Assembly: GCA_039908345.1 (NCBI GenBank)
Contig: JAMOBD010000023.1
Coordinates: 1 to 39,610 of the forward strand
DNA from: Magnetospirillum sp. WYHS-4
Lineage (GTDB): Bacteria > Pseudomonadota > Alphaproteobacteria > Rhodospirillales > GLO-3
Direction: 5' to 3'
Length of the DNA: 39,610 nt
The notes below the pieces were generated by a model. That model saw only the letters and a list, made by a program, of their open reading frames with translations, was not told where the DNA came from and searched no databases. The translations under genes and the position numbers were made by a program. Of this stretch, positions 2,777 through 12,337 are shown piece after piece (the stretch's first letter is position 1; each line of letters starts with the position of its first letter).

Positions 2777-3538
2777 TCAGGTGATATGGAAGCGCTCGAA
2801 GGCATCGGCCAGGTCCTGGCCGAAGTTGGAGTCCTTGCGGATGATGCCGGCGCTTTCCGGCAAGCCTTTGAGCGCCGCGTGCCCCGCCTCGAAGGAGGTG
2901 AGCAAGGCGAAGGGAATGGACTGGGTGCGTTCGATGGCCGCCAAAGCCCGGCAAAAATCGATGCCGGACAGGGCATCCAGCATGAAGGACGAGATCACCA
3001 TGTCGGGCCGCGTGCGCACCGCCAGTTCCAGCGCCTCGTACGATTTGGTCAGCGTGGTGACGCGGTAGCCGGCCGCCCTCAGTTCCCGTTCGAAAATGCG
3101 GGCCGACGCACGCTGGGGTTCGACCAGCAGTATTTCGATGTCCAGGTGATCGAGGTCCGACATGTCCATCGGCCGCGGCACCGGCAGGGAGCGGACGAAT
3201 TCTCCCTCGTCGGCCCGGCCGTCGATTTCGCCTTCCAGAATGCTTTCCAACACCATCAGGAAGACGTCGATGTCGCCCAGGGCCGAGGGCGTCACGTCGG
3301 TGATGCCTTCGACGTAGCTTTCCAGGCGGCGTACCGCCAAGTCGATGAGCGGATGATTGGCCCAATGGGCGAGTTGGTGCAGGCGGGCGCACTCGCGAGC
3401 CAAGCGGGCCAAGGCTTCCCCTTTGTCGCCCACCCCGGACCGCATGTTGCTGAGCGTCACCGAGAAGGTGGTCAGCGTGTCCCGGGCCTCGCCCAGGAAC
3501 TCCTCGTCGATCTGGCCTTCGAACTTATCGGCGTTCAT
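2777..3538 (-). CDS. HPt-like / degenerate receiver-domain protein
   Basis: This 253-residue protein appears to join two signalling folds. Residues 10-105 are helical and resemble a histidine phosphotransfer (HPt) module; [11 protein letters not shown] would place a candidate phosphorylatable His at residue 54, but the usual Lys-Gly after it is missing. Residues 132-250 match a CheY-type receiver, with a first strand [10 protein letters not shown], a conserved Thr (ALLTS, 214) and a conserved Lys (IIRKD, 235). The phospho-acceptor Asp is absent: in [15 protein letters not shown] a Ser (184) sits at that position, and the acidic pair after strand 1 is Glu-Pro. It probably signals without Asp phosphorylation. 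It starts 26 bases after the helicase gene. Function unknown; the HPt assignment is tentative. Confidence 0.75.
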
Positions 3539-5283: not shown

Positions 5284-5721
5284 TCAGCCCCCCGGCAGGG
5301 TCACCACATCGAGCCAGAATTGAGCGGCGGTGCGCACCGCACGGGCCAGATCCTCGGCTTGTTCCGGCTTGCTGATAAAGCAGTTGGCGTGTTCTTCATG
5401 GCAGCGCAGGATATCCTGCTGGGTGCGTGACGAAGTCAGGATCATCACCGGAATCCCCCGTAACGAGGCATCGCGCTTGATCTCGGCCAGCACGTCGCGG
5501 CCGTCCATGCCGGGCAGGCTGAGGTCGAGAAGGATCAGATGCGGAGTCGGCACGCCCTGGTAGGGTGCGTCCTTCCTGAGAAATCGCACCGCGTCCAAGC
5601 CGTTTTCCGCATGATGGACCCGGTTCAGGGACTTGGCCTCCCCGAAAACGGCACGGACCACGCTGGCATCGCCGGGATTATCTTCCACCAGCAGGACCTC
5701 GATCAAGTTGCGGCGCCTCAT
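5284..5721 (-). CDS. Single-domain response regulator (Rcp1/CheY-like)
   Basis: This 145-residue protein is a stand-alone receiver with all key residues: acidic pair E13/D14 in VLLVEDNPGD, phospho-acceptor D66 in LILLDLSLPGMDG, T96 in MILTSS and K118 in FISKPE. There is no output domain. The NPGD after the acidic pair and the overall spacing are typical of the Rcp1-like subgroup, which often works beside phytochrome-like or hybrid kinases. It lies 13 bases downstream of the GGDEF gene and is probably the last gene of the MBL / coiled-coil / adenylyl cyclase / GGDEF / receiver cluster. No cognate histidine kinase is nearby. Confidence 0.9.
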   Translation of the reverse strand: MRRRNLIEVLLVEDNPGDASVVRAVFGEAKSLNRVHHAENGLDAVRFLRKDAPYQGVPTPHLILLDLSLPGMDGRDVLAEIKRDASLRGIPVMILTSSRTQQDILRCHEEHANCFISKPEQAEDLARAVRTAAQFWLDVVTLPGG

Positions 5722-5734
5722 CGCACGGACTCCC

Positions 5735-6784
5735 TCACTCCCTATTTTCGCCCGAATGGGTCAGGACCCGGTTGCGACCTTCGCGCTTGGCCGCCGCCAG
5801 GGCTTGGTCGGCCGCCGAGAAAAAGCCGTCCACGGTGTGGCCTGCCGCGAATTCCGCCACCCCCGCCGAAATGGTGATCCGTCCCAAGGATTCGTGAGCT
5901 CCACGCTTGACCAACTCGCGGGATTCGAGGGTTTTGCGGATACGTTCGGCGAGCGCCGCGGCCTCCTTGGCCGCCGCCCGCCGGAGAATGAGTCCGAATT
6001 CCTCGCCGCCGATGCGAGCCGCCACGTCGGTAGCCCGGGTCGCCGATTTGATGATCCCTGCCACCAGCTTCAGCACGTTGTCGCCCACCGGATGGCCGTG
6101 GCGGTCGTTGAACTGCTTGAAATGATCCAGGTCGACCAGCACCAGGGCAAGGTCGCTGCCGGTCTGGCCGGCTTCTTCGACCATCTCCCGCAGGCGGGCA
6201 TCGAAGTAGCGGCGGTTGCCGAGGTCGGTAAGTTCGTCGGTAATGGCTTGGCGATGCACCTCTTCCAGGCGGTTACGCAGCAGGAAGACCTCTTCCGACG
6301 TCTCCTTCAGGGTGCGGGAAAGGTCGGCCTGCTTGGCCGCCATCTCCACCGCCATGGCGATGATCTCGGCCACGGCGCCACGGACATCGTCGAGAGTCTG
6401 GGCATCTTCCAGGCGAACCGCCGTCTCGCGCAGGCCGCGCCCGAACTCGCCGGTTTCTCCTTCTGCCTTGGCCAGATGGGTGAGCACGTTGCTCACGGCG
6501 GCATAGACGCCGTTAACCCCCTGGAAGAGCTTCCGGCATTCCAATTGCGCCAGGACGAAATGGCAGAGCATTTCGTCGCGCTTCTCGGTCGGCACGGCGT
6601 CGCGATTGGCGAGGTACTGTTCCAGCTTGCGGCTCCAGCCGGGATCGACGTCGGCCGCATAGGCGTACCAAGCCATCAAGTTGGTCGGCGTGGGTGGCAA
6701 CCCATACCGTTCCAGCAACATGACAGCCCGCTCGATATTCTTGCGCGTCTTCACGAAATCGTTCATGGCCGCGTCGATTTCCAT
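5735..6784 (-). CDS. GGDEF-domain diguanylate cyclase
   Basis: Predicted to make cyclic di-GMP from two GTP. The 349-residue form starts MEIDAAMNDF; a start at the internal ATG (6766, MNDF) is equally possible because no ribosome site clearly decides. Residues 10-150 form an all-helical N-terminal region with no recognised sensor domain and no membrane segment, followed by a coiled coil (about 150-180) leading into the GGDEF domain (ITDELTDLGNRRYFD). The active site is GGEEF (259-263). An RxxD inhibitory site (R250-ATD) sits five residues before it, so product inhibition is expected. It lies about 75 bases after the adenylyl cyclase gene, and the receiver gene follows after 13 bases, suggesting joint control of two second messengers. 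Confidence 0.9.
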   Translation of the reverse strand: MEIDAAMNDFVKTRKNIERAVMLLERYGLPPTPTNLMAWYAYAADVDPGWSRKLEQYLANRDAVPTEKRDEMLCHFVLAQLECRKLFQGVNGVYAAVSNVLTHLAKAEGETGEFGRGLRETAVRLEDAQTLDDVRGAVAEIIAMAVEMAAKQADLSRTLKETSEEVFLLRNRLEEVHRQAITDELTDLGNRRYFDARLREMVEEAGQTGSDLALVLVDLDHFKQFNDRHGHPVGDNVLKLVAGIIKSATRATDVAARIGGEEFGLILRRAAAKEAAALAERIRKTLESRELVKRGAHESLGRITISAGVAEFAAGHTVDGFFSAADQALAAAKREGRNRVLTHSGENRE

Positions 6785-6858
6785 TCCCCCTGCATGGCCC
6801 AGCATACCCCTCGCCGCCGGGCGACCGCAACGTCTTTGCGGGGACGGGCCCTTCGTTG

Positions 6859-9141
6859 CTATTTGCTTTTCATCACCCAAACGCCCTTCCAGCCTTCCGG
6901 CGGTTCCGCCTTCAGGTGCTCGCAGCGTTCGACGTAGATCTGCGACAGCTTGTCGCCCGGATTGGCCTTCAAGGCCTCCTGAAACAAGGCGATGGCGCCG
7001 TCGAAATCGCCCTTGATGTACTTGGCCCGGCCGGCGCGGAAGAAATTCACCACGTCCATCACATTGGGGAACGTCTCGTCGGTGTGGTAGTCCAGCACCT
7101 CGAAGACTTCCACCGGCTCGGTCTTGCCCTTGACCACCACGTGGTCCACGTCGCGCACCCGGTAAGTGCCGCGCAGCTTCTTGACGGTGTATTCGCTGAT
7201 AAGGATGCGGGCGGCGTACTGCTTGCAGGCGCTTTCCAGGCGCGAGGCCAGGTTCACGCCGTCGCCGATCATGGTGTAGTCCATGCGCTTGGGGCTGCCG
7301 ATGTTGCCCGACACCACCACGTCGGTGTTCAGCCCGACGCCCATGTCGACCGGCATGTCGCCGCGCGCCTTGCGCTCCTTGTTCCATTCCCACAGTTCGC
7401 GGATCATGGCGATGGAAGCCCGCACGCCGCGATCCGGATCGTCCTCATGGGCCACCGGCAAGCCGAAGCCGGCCATGATGGCGTCGCCGATGAACTTGTC
7501 GAGCATGCCGCCTTCGCGGGAGATGCAGTCCACCATGATGGTGAAGTACTCGTTCAGCAAGGCGACGGTACCCTGGGCACCCAGCTTCTCGGTGATGGTG
7601 GTGAAGCCGCGCACGTCCGAGAACAGGATGGTGGCTTCGACGCTTTTCCCCCCCATGATGTCCTCGCCGCCACCGCCGGCCAGCAACTGGTCGGCAAGGC
7701 CCGGGTCCATGTAGCGGGACATGGTGGACTTCATGCGCTTTTCCGAACTGATGTCCTCGATCATCACCATCGAGCCCAGTTTCTTCTGTTCGGTACTGAC
7801 CAGGGGCAGAACCGTCAGGTTGACCGAGCGCTTTTCCCCGCCGCAGAGCAGTTCGGCGTCCATGGCGATATCGGCCACCTGGGTCTCGCCTACCTTGGCG
7901 ATCTTCTCCAGCACCCAGCCGTTGTCGGCGGCGAAGAAGTCGTCGGCCTTCTTCTTCAGGGTCTCCTTGGCCGTCAGGCCGAAGATGCGATAGCCCGCCC
8001 GGTTGCAGGTGACGATCACGCCGTTCTCGTCCAGGGTCACCACGCCATTGGACATGCTTTCCAGCATGCTTTCGTTGTAGTTCTTCATGTTCTGGACGTC
8101 TTCGAACAGCTTGGCGTTCTCCAGCGCGATGGAGACCTGGGCGGTAAAGGCCTTGAGCCGCTGCTCGTCCTCGGCATTGAACGATCCGCCGCGCTTGTTG
8201 AGGATCTGGGTGACGCCGATGATCTTTCCGGTCTTGTTGACCAGGGGCACGCAGAGGATGGAACGGGTGAAGAAACCGGTCTTCTTGTCGAAGCCCGGAT
8301 TGAAGCGCAGGTCGGCATAGGCATAGGGAATGTTGATCGTCTCGCCCGATTTGAAGACCGCTCCGGCGATGCCGAGATGGTTGGGAAAGCGGATTTCGCC
8401 CACGCTGCCGCCCTGGGCGACGCGGGAGAACAGCTCGTTGGTCTTTTCGTCGCTGAGGAACAGCGTCGAGCGTTCCGCCTTCAACATGCGGGTCGCCTCG
8501 CTCATCACCTTCTGCAGCAGGGCGCCCAGGTCGATTTCCGAAGTCACGTCGGAAACCACGTTCAGGAATTCCAGTTCCTGGACGCGCGACTTCTTCATCT
8601 TCTCGACGAACTGGGTGCTCTGCAGCGCGATGGCCGCCTGGGTGGTCATGGCCTCCAGGAGCTTGAGGTCATCCTCCGTGAAGGGGCCGCTGCGCTTGTT
8701 GAGCGCCTGGGTGACGCCGATGACCTCGCCCTTCACCGTCCTGACCGGCACGCAGAGGATGGTCTTGGTGCGAAAGCCGGTCTGTTCGTCCACCGACCTG
8801 TTGAAGCGCTCGTCCGCATAGGCGTCGTCGATAATCAGCCCGGTGCCGGAGGTAAAGACGTGACCGGCGACGCCCGATGTGTTGAGGATGCGGATCTCGC
8901 GCTGGAAGTTTCCCTGGGCGATGCGGGAATAAAGCTCGCCGGTCTGCGCGTCGTTGAGGAACAAGGTGGAGCGTTCGGCGTCCAGTTCCCAGGAAATCAT
9001 CTCGACCAGGGTGGCGAGGATCTCGTCCAGGGACTCGATGGCAGCCACCTTGCGCGACACGTCGAGCAGCATTTCCGCCCGCTTGAGCCGCTTGGTGTCC
9101 TCGGCTTCCGGCACGCCGGGCTTGGGCGCGCCGTCATTCAT
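6859..9141 (-). CDS. GAF-GAF-PAS class III adenylyl cyclase
   Basis: A 760-residue soluble cyclase predicted to make cAMP. Domains: GAF1 (about 25-175), GAF2 (200-345), PAS (355-470), class III cyclase catalytic domain (500-685), and a C-terminal TPR-like helix pair (GDFDGAIALFQEALKANPGD). GAF2 carries the full NKFDE signature (N315, K316, F321, D325, E326) of cyclic-nucleotide-binding GAF domains; GAF1 has a weaker version. Catalytic residues are present: metal Asp D509 (LFSDVRGFT) and D553 (KFIGDAIMAGFG), N630 and R634 (GDGVNLASR). K549 and T623 form the Lys/Thr pair of class IIIb adenylyl cyclases, so ATP is favoured over GTP. The layout recalls cyanobacterial CyaB1/CyaB2, in which GAF domains bind cAMP. 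Its start overlaps the coiled-coil gene by 8 bases. Confidence 0.94.
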   Translation of the reverse strand: MNDGAPKPGVPEAEDTKRLKRAEMLLDVSRKVAAIESLDEILATLVEMISWELDAERSTLFLNDAQTGELYSRIAQGNFQREIRILNTSGVAGHVFTSGTGLIIDDAYADERFNRSVDEQTGFRTKTILCVPVRTVKGEVIGVTQALNKRSGPFTEDDLKLLEAMTTQAAIALQSTQFVEKMKKSRVQELEFLNVVSDVTSEIDLGALLQKVMSEATRMLKAERSTLFLSDEKTNELFSRVAQGGSVGEIRFPNHLGIAGAVFKSGETINIPYAYADLRFNPGFDKKTGFFTRSILCVPLVNKTGKIIGVTQILNKRGGSFNAEDEQRLKAFTAQVSIALENAKLFEDVQNMKNYNESMLESMSNGVVTLDENGVIVTCNRAGYRIFGLTAKETLKKKADDFFAADNGWVLEKIAKVGETQVADIAMDAELLCGGEKRSVNLTVLPLVSTEQKKLGSMVMIEDISSEKRMKSTMSRYMDPGLADQLLAGGGGEDIMGGKSVEATILFSDVRGFTTITEKLGAQGTVALLNEYFTIMVDCISREGGMLDKFIGDAIMAGFGLPVAHEDDPDRGVRASIAMIRELWEWNKERKARGDMPVDMGVGLNTDVVVSGNIGSPKRMDYTMIGDGVNLASRLESACKQYAARILISEYTVKKLRGTYRVRDVDHVVVKGKTEPVEVFEVLDYHTDETFPNVMDVVNFFRAGRAKYIKGDFDGAIALFQEALKANPGDKLSQIYVERCEHLKAEPPEGWKGVWVMKSK

Positions 9142-9676
9142 GGCGGCCCCCCACCAGTTCGGTCAGGGCGCTGACGGCGGCTTCCAGTTGCTGGACCTCG
9201 TCGCGCCCGTCCCGGCGCAGGCGGTAAAGGGTCTGGTCGTGCAAGATGGTCTGGCGGTCCCGTTCTTCCTGCAGGGCCTTCTCGGCGGCCCGCAACTGAT
9301 GCAATTCGTCGGAGGACAGGTAGACGGCGTCCTGGACCGCCTTGTCGTTGCCGAAGCGCATGTTCTCCAACTCGGCATCCAGGGCCTCGATGGTGCGCCG
9401 GAGTTGCGCCACCTCGTCGAAGGCGGCGGCGCGGGCTTCCTGGACTTGACGTTCCGTCTCGAAACCGAAGCGGTCGATCTCTTCGCCCAGAGCCTCGATG
9501 GCGAGACCCAACTGCCGGGCCTCGTCATGGGCCGCGGCGATGGCTTCCTCCACCGCCTTGTCCTTCTCGTAGCGGGTACGTTCCAACTCGTCTTGCATGG
9601 CCTGCTGGGTGTCGCGCAGGAACCTGACTTCCAGCCGCGCTTCATGCAGGGCCTCAGCCTGACTTCCGTTCACCAT
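9134..9676 (-). CDS. Coiled-coil protein made of four 36-residue repeats
   Basis: I do not recognise the family. The 180-residue product is highly charged and almost wholly helical, with no signal peptide or membrane segment. Four consecutive 36-residue repeats can be aligned without gaps: residues 28-63, 64-99, 100-135 and 136-171. Each has Asp-Glu at repeat position 24-25, Leu at 29 and an A-L pair at its end (EAL, EAL, KAL, SAL). Thirty-six residues make ten alpha-helical turns. The ATG at 9676 is chosen because translation further upstream enters low-quality sequence shared with the next gene. The last 8 bases overlap the adenylyl cyclase start, so the two are translationally coupled; a scaffold or cyclase partner role is inferred. 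Confidence 0.8.
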   Translation of the reverse strand: MVNGSQAEALHEARLEVRFLRDTQQAMQDELERTRYEKDKAVEEAIAAAHDEARQLGLAIEALGEEIDRFGFETERQVQEARAAAFDEVAQLRRTIEALDAELENMRFGNDKAVQDAVYLSSDELHQLRAAEKALQEERDRQTILHDQTLYRLRRDGRDEVQQLEAAVSALTELVGGRHE

Positions 9677-9762
9677 CCACCATCCCCGAGCCGACCATTG
9701 GGCTTCCCCCATCCTCGCCCTGTCCCGGTCTGGCGTCAAGACCGCGCCCCGCACCGGCAAGG

Positions 9763-10584
9763 TCACTCGAAGACGATTTCCATGCCTTCCTTGGCGACGA
9801 AGGCTTCCGACCATTCGGCCTTGGCTTCCGCTGCGATGCCGTCCATGAAGGCGTCGTCGTGGTCGGGGTCGTGGTGGAAGATGGCCAGGCTTTTGGCCCC
9901 GGCGGCGCGGCACAGCCGCAGCCCCTCGTTCCAGGTCGAATGGCCCCAGCCGATCTTGGACGGGAATTCCGCTTCGGTGTAGGTGGAGTCGTAGATCACC
10001 ACGTCGGCCCCTTCGATGAGGCCCAGGATATTCTCGTCGATCTGACCGGGCACATGTTCGGTGTCGGTCACGTAGCAGGCAGACTTTCCCTTGTATTCCA
10101 GGCGGTATCCGGTGGCGCCGTTAGGGTGGCGCAAGGGGGCTGTCCGGACATTCAGCGACTTGCCGAGCCGGAAGCTGTCGCCGGCGACGAAGTCCTCCAG
10201 GCTCAACTGGCAGCGCATGGCCTCCAGCGGCACAGGGAACATTGGGTTGTCCATCTGAGCCGACAGCACGTCCCGGATGCCCTGCCCTTTCAGGTGGCCG
10301 GCCCGGATGTGCAACGTGAAGGACGGCATGTAGGCCGGGGCGAAGAACGGGAAGCCGTTGATGTGGTCCCAGTGGGTATGGGTGAGCAGCAACTGGGCTT
10401 CCGTGCAGCCCCGCTTGAGAATCTGGGCACCCAGGGTCCGGATTCCGGTACCGGCATCCATGATGATGCATTCGTCGTCGACCTGGACTTCGAGGCAACT
10501 GGTGTTGCCGCCGTAGCGGATATGCTGCGCCGACGGGCAGGCAATGCTGCCCCGGACCCCCCAGAATCGAATTCGAAATCCCAT
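9763..10584 (-). CDS. MBL-fold metallohydrolase (PhnP/TaR3-like)
   Basis: A 273-residue metallo-beta-lactamase-fold hydrolase starting MGFRIRFWGVRGSIACP, the N-terminus of the COG1235/TaR3-like group. Metal ligands are visible: HTHWDH (H69, H71, D73, H74), H153 (LRHPNGATGY), D174 (YVTDTEH), and a late His (H237 or H238 in FHHDPDHDD). The substrate is unknown. Members of this fold hydrolyse cyclic phosphodiesters, among others, so a role in cyclic-nucleotide turnover beside an adenylyl cyclase is attractive, but it rests only on context. It is the first gene of the signalling cluster, with 86 bases to the coiled-coil gene. Confidence 0.88.
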   Translation of the reverse strand: MGFRIRFWGVRGSIACPSAQHIRYGGNTSCLEVQVDDECIIMDAGTGIRTLGAQILKRGCTEAQLLLTHTHWDHINGFPFFAPAYMPSFTLHIRAGHLKGQGIRDVLSAQMDNPMFPVPLEAMRCQLSLEDFVAGDSFRLGKSLNVRTAPLRHPNGATGYRLEYKGKSACYVTDTEHVPGQIDENILGLIEGADVVIYDSTYTEAEFPSKIGWGHSTWNEGLRLCRAAGAKSLAIFHHDPDHDDAFMDGIAAEAKAEWSEAFVAKEGMEIVFE

Positions 10585-10721: not shown

Positions 10722-11468
10722 TCACACCCCTTCGACCATCACCGCGGAGCCCGGCTCCAAGCCCAAAATCCGGTTGGCCCTTCCGCGATTTACCGCAAGT
10801 TCGACCAATCCGTTGGAATTTTCATACCAGAAAGCCGAACCGGGGGAAACGTCGGAGAATGTGAGGGCGCGCGCCAGCGCCCGGCCGCCGACCCGAACAC
10901 GGGATTCAGGGGAGAGCCCTGAAGCCCGCAGCCCCGTCACCGCATTACCGAAGCCGTCTATATAGATAATCACGCCCCAATCGTCCGGCCAGTCGGGAAA
11001 TCGGATTCCGTCTCCGGCAACGGGCCGGGCCCAATCCGAATTGCCGGGCCTCTCGCCCCTGGCCAGGCCTGCGGCAACGGGCGCGAAGAGATCGCGGCCG
11101 TGGAAGGAAGACGACAGCCGCTCCGGCCGCCAGAGAATCTCCCACCAGCGGACGGGGCCGGCGGCGCGCCGGGCCACCAGTTCGAACAGGCCGTTGCCCG
11201 GACCGACGAAGAAGCGGCCGTCCGCCTCCAGGATCACGGCCGGTCGGGGGCTCCCCACCCCCGGATCGACCACGCAGAGGAAGACGCTGCCCGGCGGGAA
11301 TTCCCCAACGAAGGCGGGAAGCAAATATGCCGCCGCCTTGGGATCGAAGGAAGGGGCGTCGGCCATCAGGTCGACCTGTGGAATGCCGGGGGCTTCCCGC
11401 AACAGAACGGCCCGCATCTGCCCGACGTAGGGCCCGCCGACGCCGAAATCGGTGAACAGGACGATCAG
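10722..11468 (-). CDS. SAM hydroxide adenosyltransferase (DUF62), apparent CTG start
   Basis: The family hydrolyses S-adenosylmethionine to adenosine and methionine and is related to fluorinase/chlorinase. The 248-residue product begins (M)IVLFTDFG, the universal family N-terminus, and carries the described Asp-Arg-His triad: D68 in VVDPGVG, R75, and H123 in SFHGRDLFAP. The codon for the first residue is CTG at 11468. No ATG, GTG or TTG lies nearby in frame upstream, where the reading frame overlaps the end of rpoH. GGGAG lies 7 bases before the CTG, and the CTG shares bases with the rpoH TGA (CTGA), which suggests translational coupling. A sequencing error or a start further inside is possible but would remove the conserved TDFG strand. 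Confidence 0.85.
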   Translation of the reverse strand: MIVLFTDFGVGGPYVGQMRAVLLREAPGIPQVDLMADAPSFDPKAAAYLLPAFVGEFPPGSVFLCVVDPGVGSPRPAVILEADGRFFVGPGNGLFELVARRAAGPVRWWEILWRPERLSSSFHGRDLFAPVAAGLARGERPGNSDWARPVAGDGIRFPDWPDDWGVIIYIDGFGNAVTGLRASGLSPESRVRVGGRALARALTFSDVSPGSAFWYENSNGLVELAVNRGRANRILGLEPGSAVMVEGV

Positions 11469-12337
11469 GCGACCGCTCCCAGGACGGCCTTCTGCACCTT
11501 CTCGAATGCCCGATTCTCGATCTGGCGGACACGCTCGCGGCTGATGCCCAGACGTCCCCCCAACTCGTCGAGGGTCACCGGATCGTCGGACAAGCGGCGG
11601 GCCTCCAGCACCAGGCGGTCGCGCTCCGACAAGGTAGCGAGGGCATCCAGGAGCAATCGGCGGCGCAGGAGAGCTTCTTGCCCCTCGGCCAGCCCCTCTT
11701 CGGCCGAGACGCGGTCGTCGGCCAGGCTGTCCTGGAATTGGGGCGCGTTCTCCCCGTCGCTTACCGGGGCGTTCAGGGACACGTCGCGGCTGCCGAAGCG
11801 CCGGTTCATGTCGACGACGTCCTGGGCGTCGACATCCAGACGGCGCGCCAGCGTCTCCGCATCCGCCGGGGTCAGGTCGCCGGATTCGGATATCTTGAGG
11901 CTGCTCTTGAGACGGCGCAGGCTGAAGAACAGCTTCTTCTGGGCCGCCAGGGTCCCCATCTTGACCAGGGACCAGGAACGCAGCACGTACTCGGTGATCG
12001 AGGCCTTGATCCACCAGATGGCGTAGGTGGCCAAGCGGAAGCCGCGCTCCGGCTCGAACTTCTTCACCGCCTTCATCAGGCCGATGTTGCCTTCCGCCAC
12101 CAGATCCGACAGCGGCAGTCCGTAGCCGCGATACTTCATGGCGATCTTGGCCACCAGGCGCAGGTGGCTGGTCACCAGCCGGTGGGCCGCGGCGACATCG
12201 CCTTGGTCGCGCCAGCGTACCGCCAGCATGTATTCCTCCTCGGCGTCCAGGATCGGAAACTTCCAGATGGACCGGAAATAGGCGGACAGGCCTTCATCGA
12301 CCGGAACCGCCGGCAGGGTCAAAGCTTTGGTCGTCAT
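11465..12337 (-). CDS. rpoH: RNA polymerase heat-shock sigma factor RpoH (sigma-32)
   Basis: A 290-residue group-3 sigma factor directing transcription of heat-shock genes. It starts MTTKALTLPAVPVDEGLSAY, standard for alphaproteobacterial RpoH. Region 2 is seen in AAHRLVTSHLRLVAKIAM, LVAEGNIGLMKAVKKFEP and FRLATYAIWWIKASI. The RpoH box is present as QKKLFFSLRR (about 133-142), and region 4 ends with the helix-turn-helix LGGRLGISRERVRQIENRAF. The gene has a leader of about 230 bases behind a good sigma-70-type promoter, and it ends by overlapping the DUF62 gene. Alphaproteobacteria often carry several rpoH copies; one is visible here. Confidence 0.96.
   Translation of the reverse strand: MTTKALTLPAVPVDEGLSAYFRSIWKFPILDAEEEYMLAVRWRDQGDVAAAHRLVTSHLRLVAKIAMKYRGYGLPLSDLVAEGNIGLMKAVKKFEPERGFRLATYAIWWIKASITEYVLRSWSLVKMGTLAAQKKLFFSLRRLKSSLKISESGDLTPADAETLARRLDVDAQDVVDMNRRFGSRDVSLNAPVSDGENAPQFQDSLADDRVSAEEGLAEGQEALLRRRLLLDALATLSERDRLVLEARRLSDDPVTLDELGGRLGISRERVRQIENRAFEKVQKAVLGAVA

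Follow-up and report, generated by a model that had tools for sequence, protein, structure and literature searches.

Which of the signalling genes that lie side by side on one strand truly belong together is the question raised by a stretch of 39,610 nucleotides from Magnetospirillum sp. WYHS-4 (contig JAMOBD010000023.1, positions 1 to 39,610), referred to here as the window. Five genes follow one another on its minus strand, encoding in this order a metallo-β-lactamase (MBL)-fold hydrolase, a repeat coiled-coil protein (CC), a GAF-GAF-PAS class III adenylyl cyclase (GAF-AC), a GGDEF protein and a receiver (REC) protein, separated by gaps of exactly 86, -8, 74 and 13 nucleotides. A sequence-only reading of the window, accurate as to shared direction, order and spacing, had proposed that these genes form one circuit joining cyclic AMP (cAMP) and cyclic di-GMP (c-di-GMP), with the MBL enzyme as its possible hydrolytic arm. 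Comparison with relatives at order, class and phylum level (G denotes genomes, the window's own being G000, and L denotes locus stretches) reveals that the conserved unit consists of two genes, CC followed by GAF-AC, a pairing that this reading overlooked.

Pairing of the coiled-coil and cyclase genes

CC (positions 9134 to 9676, minus strand) starts with ATG and encodes 180 residues, and GAF-AC (6859 to 9141, minus strand) encodes 760 residues ending in a TPR-like C-terminal tail. The genes overlap at ATGAATGA (9134 to 9141, minus strand), where the CC stop lies inside the cyclase start, an arrangement that makes translational coupling likely. Over the union of the three samples, 102 genomes carry a close GAF-AC; CC is directly upstream of it or fused to it in 99, the pair is split by contig ends in two (G010, G273) and one is untestable (G391). 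G000 and G022 occur in all three samples.

In the order sample of 80 relatives, own genome included, CC matches came from 48 genomes, precisely those 48 that hold a close cyclase (identity of at least 61%; cut by the contig in G033 and G050). CC adjoins the cyclase on the same contig in 47 of them (46 by coordinates, G048 via L148), and in G010 the two lie at contig ends. The other 32 relatives have neither gene, G061 having a partial, more distant cyclase match and no CC. Genomes of both kinds occur within seven families (f2, f9, f18, f19, f22, f23 and f27, the case of f2 depending on a genome that is 81% complete), and thus CC and the cyclase seem to have been gained or lost together repeatedly. 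The class sample of 385 genomes contains 32 with the cyclase (identity of at least 58%), and CC is adjacent in 30 (27 by coordinates, G271 and G352 by inspection, G022 from the first search), the remainder being the contig ends of G273 and the cut locus of G391. In the phylum sample of 398 genomes the cyclase is present in 26, and CC is adjacent or fused in 26/26; the CC query detected 19 of these pairs, and inspection the remaining seven, including that of G022. At the thresholds used, CC was detected among genomes without a close cyclase in 0/32 (order), 1/353 (class) and 0/372 (phylum); in the single case, G442, the N-terminal part of a cyclase comes after CC and is then cut short, on a draft contig. 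As seven of the 26 phylum positives escaped the CC query, the negatives show absence less firmly than the positives show presence.

The pattern also holds for named genomes. Among the best 80 of 570 relatives, CC is directly upstream of the cyclase in 77, which are all of the testable loci (77/77), the other three reaching contig ends within 341 nt upstream; CC was called here by motif count and sequence reading, and these loci are partly from the same genomes as the samples (L155 = G001). The labels of these 80 comprise Rhodospirillales, other alphaproteobacteria, betaproteobacteria, 'Deltaproteobacteria', Desulfobacterales, Nitrospirae, Opitutaceae/Opitutia and Elusimicrobia, so that the pair is labelled from at least five phyla, although nearly all the records come from metagenome binning and may be mislabelled. 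The next commonest neighbour cluster, the CHASE2 cyclase of L155, occurs in 20/80 named loci once antisense artefacts are excluded; most clusters below the first look like such artefacts of six-frame reading. The gap between CC and cyclase is at most 33 nt, or the genes overlap, in 34/34 gene-caller-scored pairs (41 loci), figures that use first possible starts and include some overlaps that are too long. Recurrence of the pair across distant bacterial groups suggests that CC is a dedicated partner for a common signalling enzyme. A search for plasmid carriage of the cyclase gave no match at E <= 1e-100. The pair was also observed on two contigs of a viral collection (L235, L236), which are most likely host DNA, at a guess.

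The pairing is restricted to one cyclase clade. A hidden Markov model (HMM) of the repeat was run on 24 control loci (2105 open reading frames), comprising 18 loci with related cyclases (41-50% identity) and six around the other cyclases of the own genome; it gave no match up to E = 10 and found the window CC, included as positive control, the best control match reaching E = 1.3 when every filter was switched off. The HMM was built from the same 148 CC proteins, so that its 148/148 matches to them are no independent test. Three CC-less cyclases (L150, L151 and L152; 44-48% identity) share the GAF-GAF-PAS-cyclase domain order of GAF-AC, the stretches retrieved around them containing no CC repeat, and several others match GAF-AC from its second GAF domain onward only. 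A tree of 71 rows separates the 66 clade rows, three of which (L161, L173, L196) have the CC side cut off, from the five CC-less ones, L150 to L152 among them, by a branch of support 100; of eight CC-less cyclases, three had dropped out of the alignment, and the tree carries a long-branch warning and is to be read as unrooted. One locus among 163, L266 of G485, has CC repeats and cyclase in a single in-frame reading frame of 903 residues, which is direct but single evidence of association.

Architecture of the two proteins

The window CC displays a periodicity of 36 residues, lags 36 and 72 standing 4.8 and 4.7 standard deviations over the mean of lags 5-79, which bears out the repeat length given by the sequence-only reading. 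The repeat set was obtained by dropping rows with fewer than two anchor motifs, leaving 148 rows, or 132 once near-copies were removed; the CC of L155, with one motif only, was retained by hand because L089 covers the same place and its CC gives a 44% match to the window protein. The consensus, dEIrQLKaTaqALRDELE.lRfekdeAVQeAvAaan (545 seed units), recurs at a spacing of exactly 36 in 371/415 successive seeds, and anchors fall in a single phase within their own protein in 709/727 cases, shuffled sequences yielding four anchors in total. The hydrophobic period of 3.60 is that of an alpha-helical repeat, and its stripe should therefore run straight along the helix. AlphaFold2 predicts the window CC as one helix extending from residue 3 to residue 179, with a mean local confidence (pLDDT) of 93 and a predicted template modelling score (pTM) of 0.41, a low value that is expected for a lone rod. 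The repeat spans 2 to 13 units, with 3-6 units in 126/146 CC proteins, and is of the same span in 62/74 close pairs; of the 12 pairs that differ, at least one (L157/L158) includes a contig-cut protein. Turnover of the repeat number is accordingly not fast.

Assignment of CC to a known family was considered and rejected. The window protein has no match over cut-off in Pfam, NCBIfam or PHROGs, none in Pfam at 0.001 and no sequence match in the PDB, and the matches found in 31 scanned relatives are to assorted coiled-coil models (DUF6779 in 19, best 5.1e-10; Rab11-FIP3 of Pfam in 14; Sul12a of NCBIfam in 14) that look like general coiled-coil similarity. CC resembles bacterial coiled-coil cytoskeletal proteins in being a long helical rod, and differs from them by its period of 3.60, its strict 36-residue unit and its fixed cyclase neighbour. 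A further repeat protein was observed in the own genome (contig C29, L139:8025-8963), with 312 residues and 36-residue repeats in its C-terminal half; it lies directly downstream of a PAS-GGDEF gene. The same locus (L139:595-1452) and the window (2777-3538) encode proteins similar by eye, with a C-terminal receiver that Pfam identifies in the window protein.

The cyclase is a GAF-GAF-PAS adenylyl cyclase, as the sequence-only reading had recognised, and is of the Anabaena CyaB1/CyaB2 kind, with two GAF domains, a PAS domain and a Guanylate_cyc domain in Pfam, a sub-cut-off TPR match and no membrane domain among its Pfam matches. Like GAF-AC, CyaB1 and CyaB2 join a tandem GAF bearing the NKFDE motif to a class III catalytic domain, and CyaB1 likewise has the GAF-GAF-PAS layout. 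A possible difference from those enzymes is the CC gene that precedes every testable member of the GAF-AC clade. In the PDB the cyclase comes closest in sequence to 1ykd, which holds the GAF tandem of Anabaena CyaB2; the GAF domains of that enzyme bind cAMP (PMC4411481).

The second GAF domain, GAF-B (residues 204-342 by Pfam limits; 8116 to 8532, minus strand), holds the intact NKFDE motif that had been noted before (N315, K316, F321, D325 and E326) and is a probable cyclic-nucleotide site, and the first, GAF-A, is missing the final E. Across 130 clade cyclases, N315, F321, D325 and E326 are conserved at 100% and K316 at 90%. Residues D509, D548, K549, D553, N630 and R634 are identical in all 130 and D621 is found in 94%; among them D509, D553, K549, D621, N630 and R634 are the columns of the metal aspartates, the substrate Lys/Asp pair and the transition-state Asn/Arg. 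The mean majority frequency in the clade alignment is 0.84 for GAF-B, 0.81 for the catalytic domain and 0.72 for GAF-A. GAF-B is thus conserved like the catalytic domain, which fits a fixed ligand in GAF-B. By analogy with CyaB2 this ligand is probably cAMP and its effect self-activation, and a feedback of cAMP on its own cyclase, as first proposed from the window alone, may fairly be inferred from the cyclase type together with the intact motif.

Tandem-GAF adenylyl cyclases are studied as stand-alone self-activating enzymes, as in the Anabaena work cited in PMC4411481. A literature search covering titles and abstract beginnings, and few subscription journals, returned no account of a GAF cyclase accompanied by a coiled-coil repeat protein, and it gave no paper on Rhodospirillum centenum gcyA or on coiled coils with a 36-residue repeat. 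GAF-AC is a known cyclase type with an apparently undescribed constant partner. If the clade indeed never occurs without its rod partner, study of the cyclase alone would miss half of the machine.

Role of the coiled-coil partner

It is probable that CC is a stoichiometric partner, a rod or scaffold for assembling or placing a cAMP cyclase that activates itself. Strict pairing, touching or overlapping genes, the fusion and the specificity for one clade together point to a stoichiometric partner, and scaffold or ruler is the likeliest role for a rigid repeat rod in which no enzymatic or sensory domain can be recognised. The two genes would be expressed together and their products would act together, CC forming a long, straight coiled-coil rod of 36-residue units that binds the cyclase and assembles, clusters or places its dimers in the cell. 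The cyclase would make cAMP, and GAF-B, on binding cAMP or another cyclic nucleotide, would turn the enzyme up, such that a cluster held by CC could act as a local, self-reinforcing source of cAMP; the MBL, GGDEF and REC proteins are neighbours outside this module. A-kinase anchoring proteins (AKAPs) are eukaryotic scaffolds for adenylyl cyclases that concentrate the cAMP machinery. The likeness to CC concerns the proposed role of a non-catalytic scaffold, with no sequence relation claimed, CC differing in being bacterial, co-encoded with one cyclase and built as a rod of 36-residue repeats. With this module it could be tested directly whether scaffolds underlie local cAMP sources in bacteria, and a repeat protein that has no match over cut-off in three family libraries gains a role open to experiment.

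A number of points weigh against a scaffold. Shared regulation or help in assembly can also keep two genes together, with no scaffold needed. Similarity among coiled coils can arise by composition, although the 36-residue phase shared by the CC proteins argues against this. The own genome holds a second CC-like protein, that of L139, whose contig gave no class III cyclase match, and the repeat is therefore not exclusive to cyclases. Of 40 clade-specific columns in the cyclase, none lies in the tail, two lie in the N-terminus and four in GAF-A, a comparison based on only five CC-less sequences, and thus no CC-binding surface stood out. Finally, the fusion is a single case from a draft genome, where an insertion or deletion at the overlap could imitate it.

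An alternative that we hold to be possible, if unlikely, is that CC regulates the enzyme directly, the rod sitting on the N-terminus or GAF domains of the cyclase and holding it inactive or active until a signal on CC supplies the missing sensory input. Strict pairing and tight spacing fit a stoichiometric regulator equally well, and an input partner would make sense for a cyclase whose Pfam matches include no membrane domain. However, the window CC has no recognisable sensory domain and is predicted as a featureless single helix, and a repeat span of 2 to 13 units would be odd for a precise regulator, yet that span is constant in most close pairs.

Within the scaffold explanation, a more specific arrangement is put forward tentatively, being rather doubtful in its details: CC may polymerise or bundle into a rod on which GAF-AC dimers dock one per 36-residue unit, the number of repeats setting size or reach and GAF-B feedback switching the array together. 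If true, such a docking array would represent a widespread, previously unnamed bacterial class of second-messenger scaffold.

It is improbable that the pair is kept for folding or co-translational assembly only, with CC as a chaperone or dimer clamp of no spatial role. Genes that overlap or nearly touch and one possible fusion agree with such a function, but the three CC-less cyclases have the same GAF-GAF-PAS-cyclase domains, and a rod of up to ~13 repeats exceeds the need of a clamp.

Neighbouring genes and cAMP context

The five-gene circuit joining cAMP and c-di-GMP is very improbable and is rejected as a conserved unit, because its neighbours are not kept: only the adjacency of CC and cyclase is widely conserved. 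In the window contig the five genes do share a strand and short gaps, L089, L091 and L094 have other GGDEF genes on the upstream side, and L090, L091, L094 and L095 have small receiver genes on the downstream side (Pfam identification covering those of L089 and L091). However, when tblastn was run on the stretches holding the cyclase (3.4-20 kb each, from 40 relatives), the window GGDEF protein had no full-length match and the receiver no orthologue; matches were at domain level only (GGDEF domain in L085, L089, L091 and L094, receiver domain in L071 and L075). On the sequence-only reading, separate transcription units with no conserved neighbourhood would refute the circuit; the second half of this holds for the GGDEF and REC genes.

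The GGDEF protein (5735 to 6784, minus strand; Pfam E-value 5.6e-44) is a local neighbour that carries GGEEF and, five residues ahead of it, the inhibitory RxxD described from the window alone (RATD-VAARI-GGEEF). It has the motifs of an active, product-inhibited diguanylate cyclase, GG[DE]EF and RxxD, and is predicted to be one. The receiver (5284 to 5721, minus strand), also a local neighbour, is a single-domain response regulator of the Response_reg family in Pfam.

The MBL gene (9763 to 10584, minus strand; Lactamase_B_2 in Pfam) has no tie to the CC-cyclase module. Directly upstream of it in the window are a gene for an S-adenosylmethionine (SAM) hydroxide adenosyltransferase/hydrolase (10722 to 11483, minus strand, with a start of our choosing) and an rpoH-like sigma-32 gene (11465 to 12337, minus strand). 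These steadier neighbours accompany it in relatives too, one or both lying beside MBL in 10/10 loci checked (L089-L098). An MBL orthologue (identity of at least 58%, fragments included) was found in 67/80 order relatives, comprising 42/48 with the GAF cyclase and 25/32 without it, and any MBL match at E <= 0.001 in 72/80. By a hand count, MBL lies at most 12 kb from a CHASE2 adenylyl cyclase in 33/80 relatives, five of which (G011, G030, G032, G035 and G052) are without the GAF cyclase; proximity to another cyclase is a point in favour of the earlier hunch that MBL has to do with cyclic nucleotides.

A role for MBL as the hydrolytic arm for cAMP is unsupported. Its fold does not separate RNase Z from cyclic-phosphodiester enzymes. 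Fold matches include RNase Z, PhnP-family, YhfI and Apyc1 enzymes, with 12-21% identity among the 50 matches listed, and MBL remains below every curated NCBIfam cut-off shown, scoring 43.6 bits against the cyclic-nucleotide phosphodiesterase model NF041851 (cut-off 400) and 64.1 bits against RNase Z TIGR02651 (cut-off 292.95). Paralogues with ~40% identity and 405-418 residues were observed in L260, L261 and L262, their N-terminal stretch being receiver-like by eye, and this type of MBL may serve as a response-regulator output.

In L089 (10164-17633), a CHASE2 adenylyl cyclase on the opposite strand is accompanied by type I secretion ABC, HlyD, MotA/ExbB-like and MotB/OmpA-like genes. This block lies near MBL, SAM hydrolase and rpoH and recurs in L091, L092, L094, L095 and L097, where its non-cyclase genes lie between MBL and the CHASE2 cyclase; domains were read from L089 and the other loci assigned by gene clusters. 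The nearest CHASE2 cyclase of the own genome is on contig C61, where there is no secretion-gene match. A cyclase next to a secretion system that has a proton-channel pair of its own seems worth study.

The own genome is rich in cAMP signalling, with eight class III cyclase and 19 cyclic nucleotide monophosphate (cNMP)-binding domain matches. In four genomes of ~1.4 Mb (G318, G087, G220 and G398; 89-93% complete) only two class III cyclases each were found. One of the two is paired with CC, and in G318 (contig C7; L257, L263) the second is a CHASE2 cyclase at a distance of ~14 kb, the stretch between the two giving HlyD and ABC matches. In all four genomes, two small cNMP-binding proteins lie beside the second cyclase.

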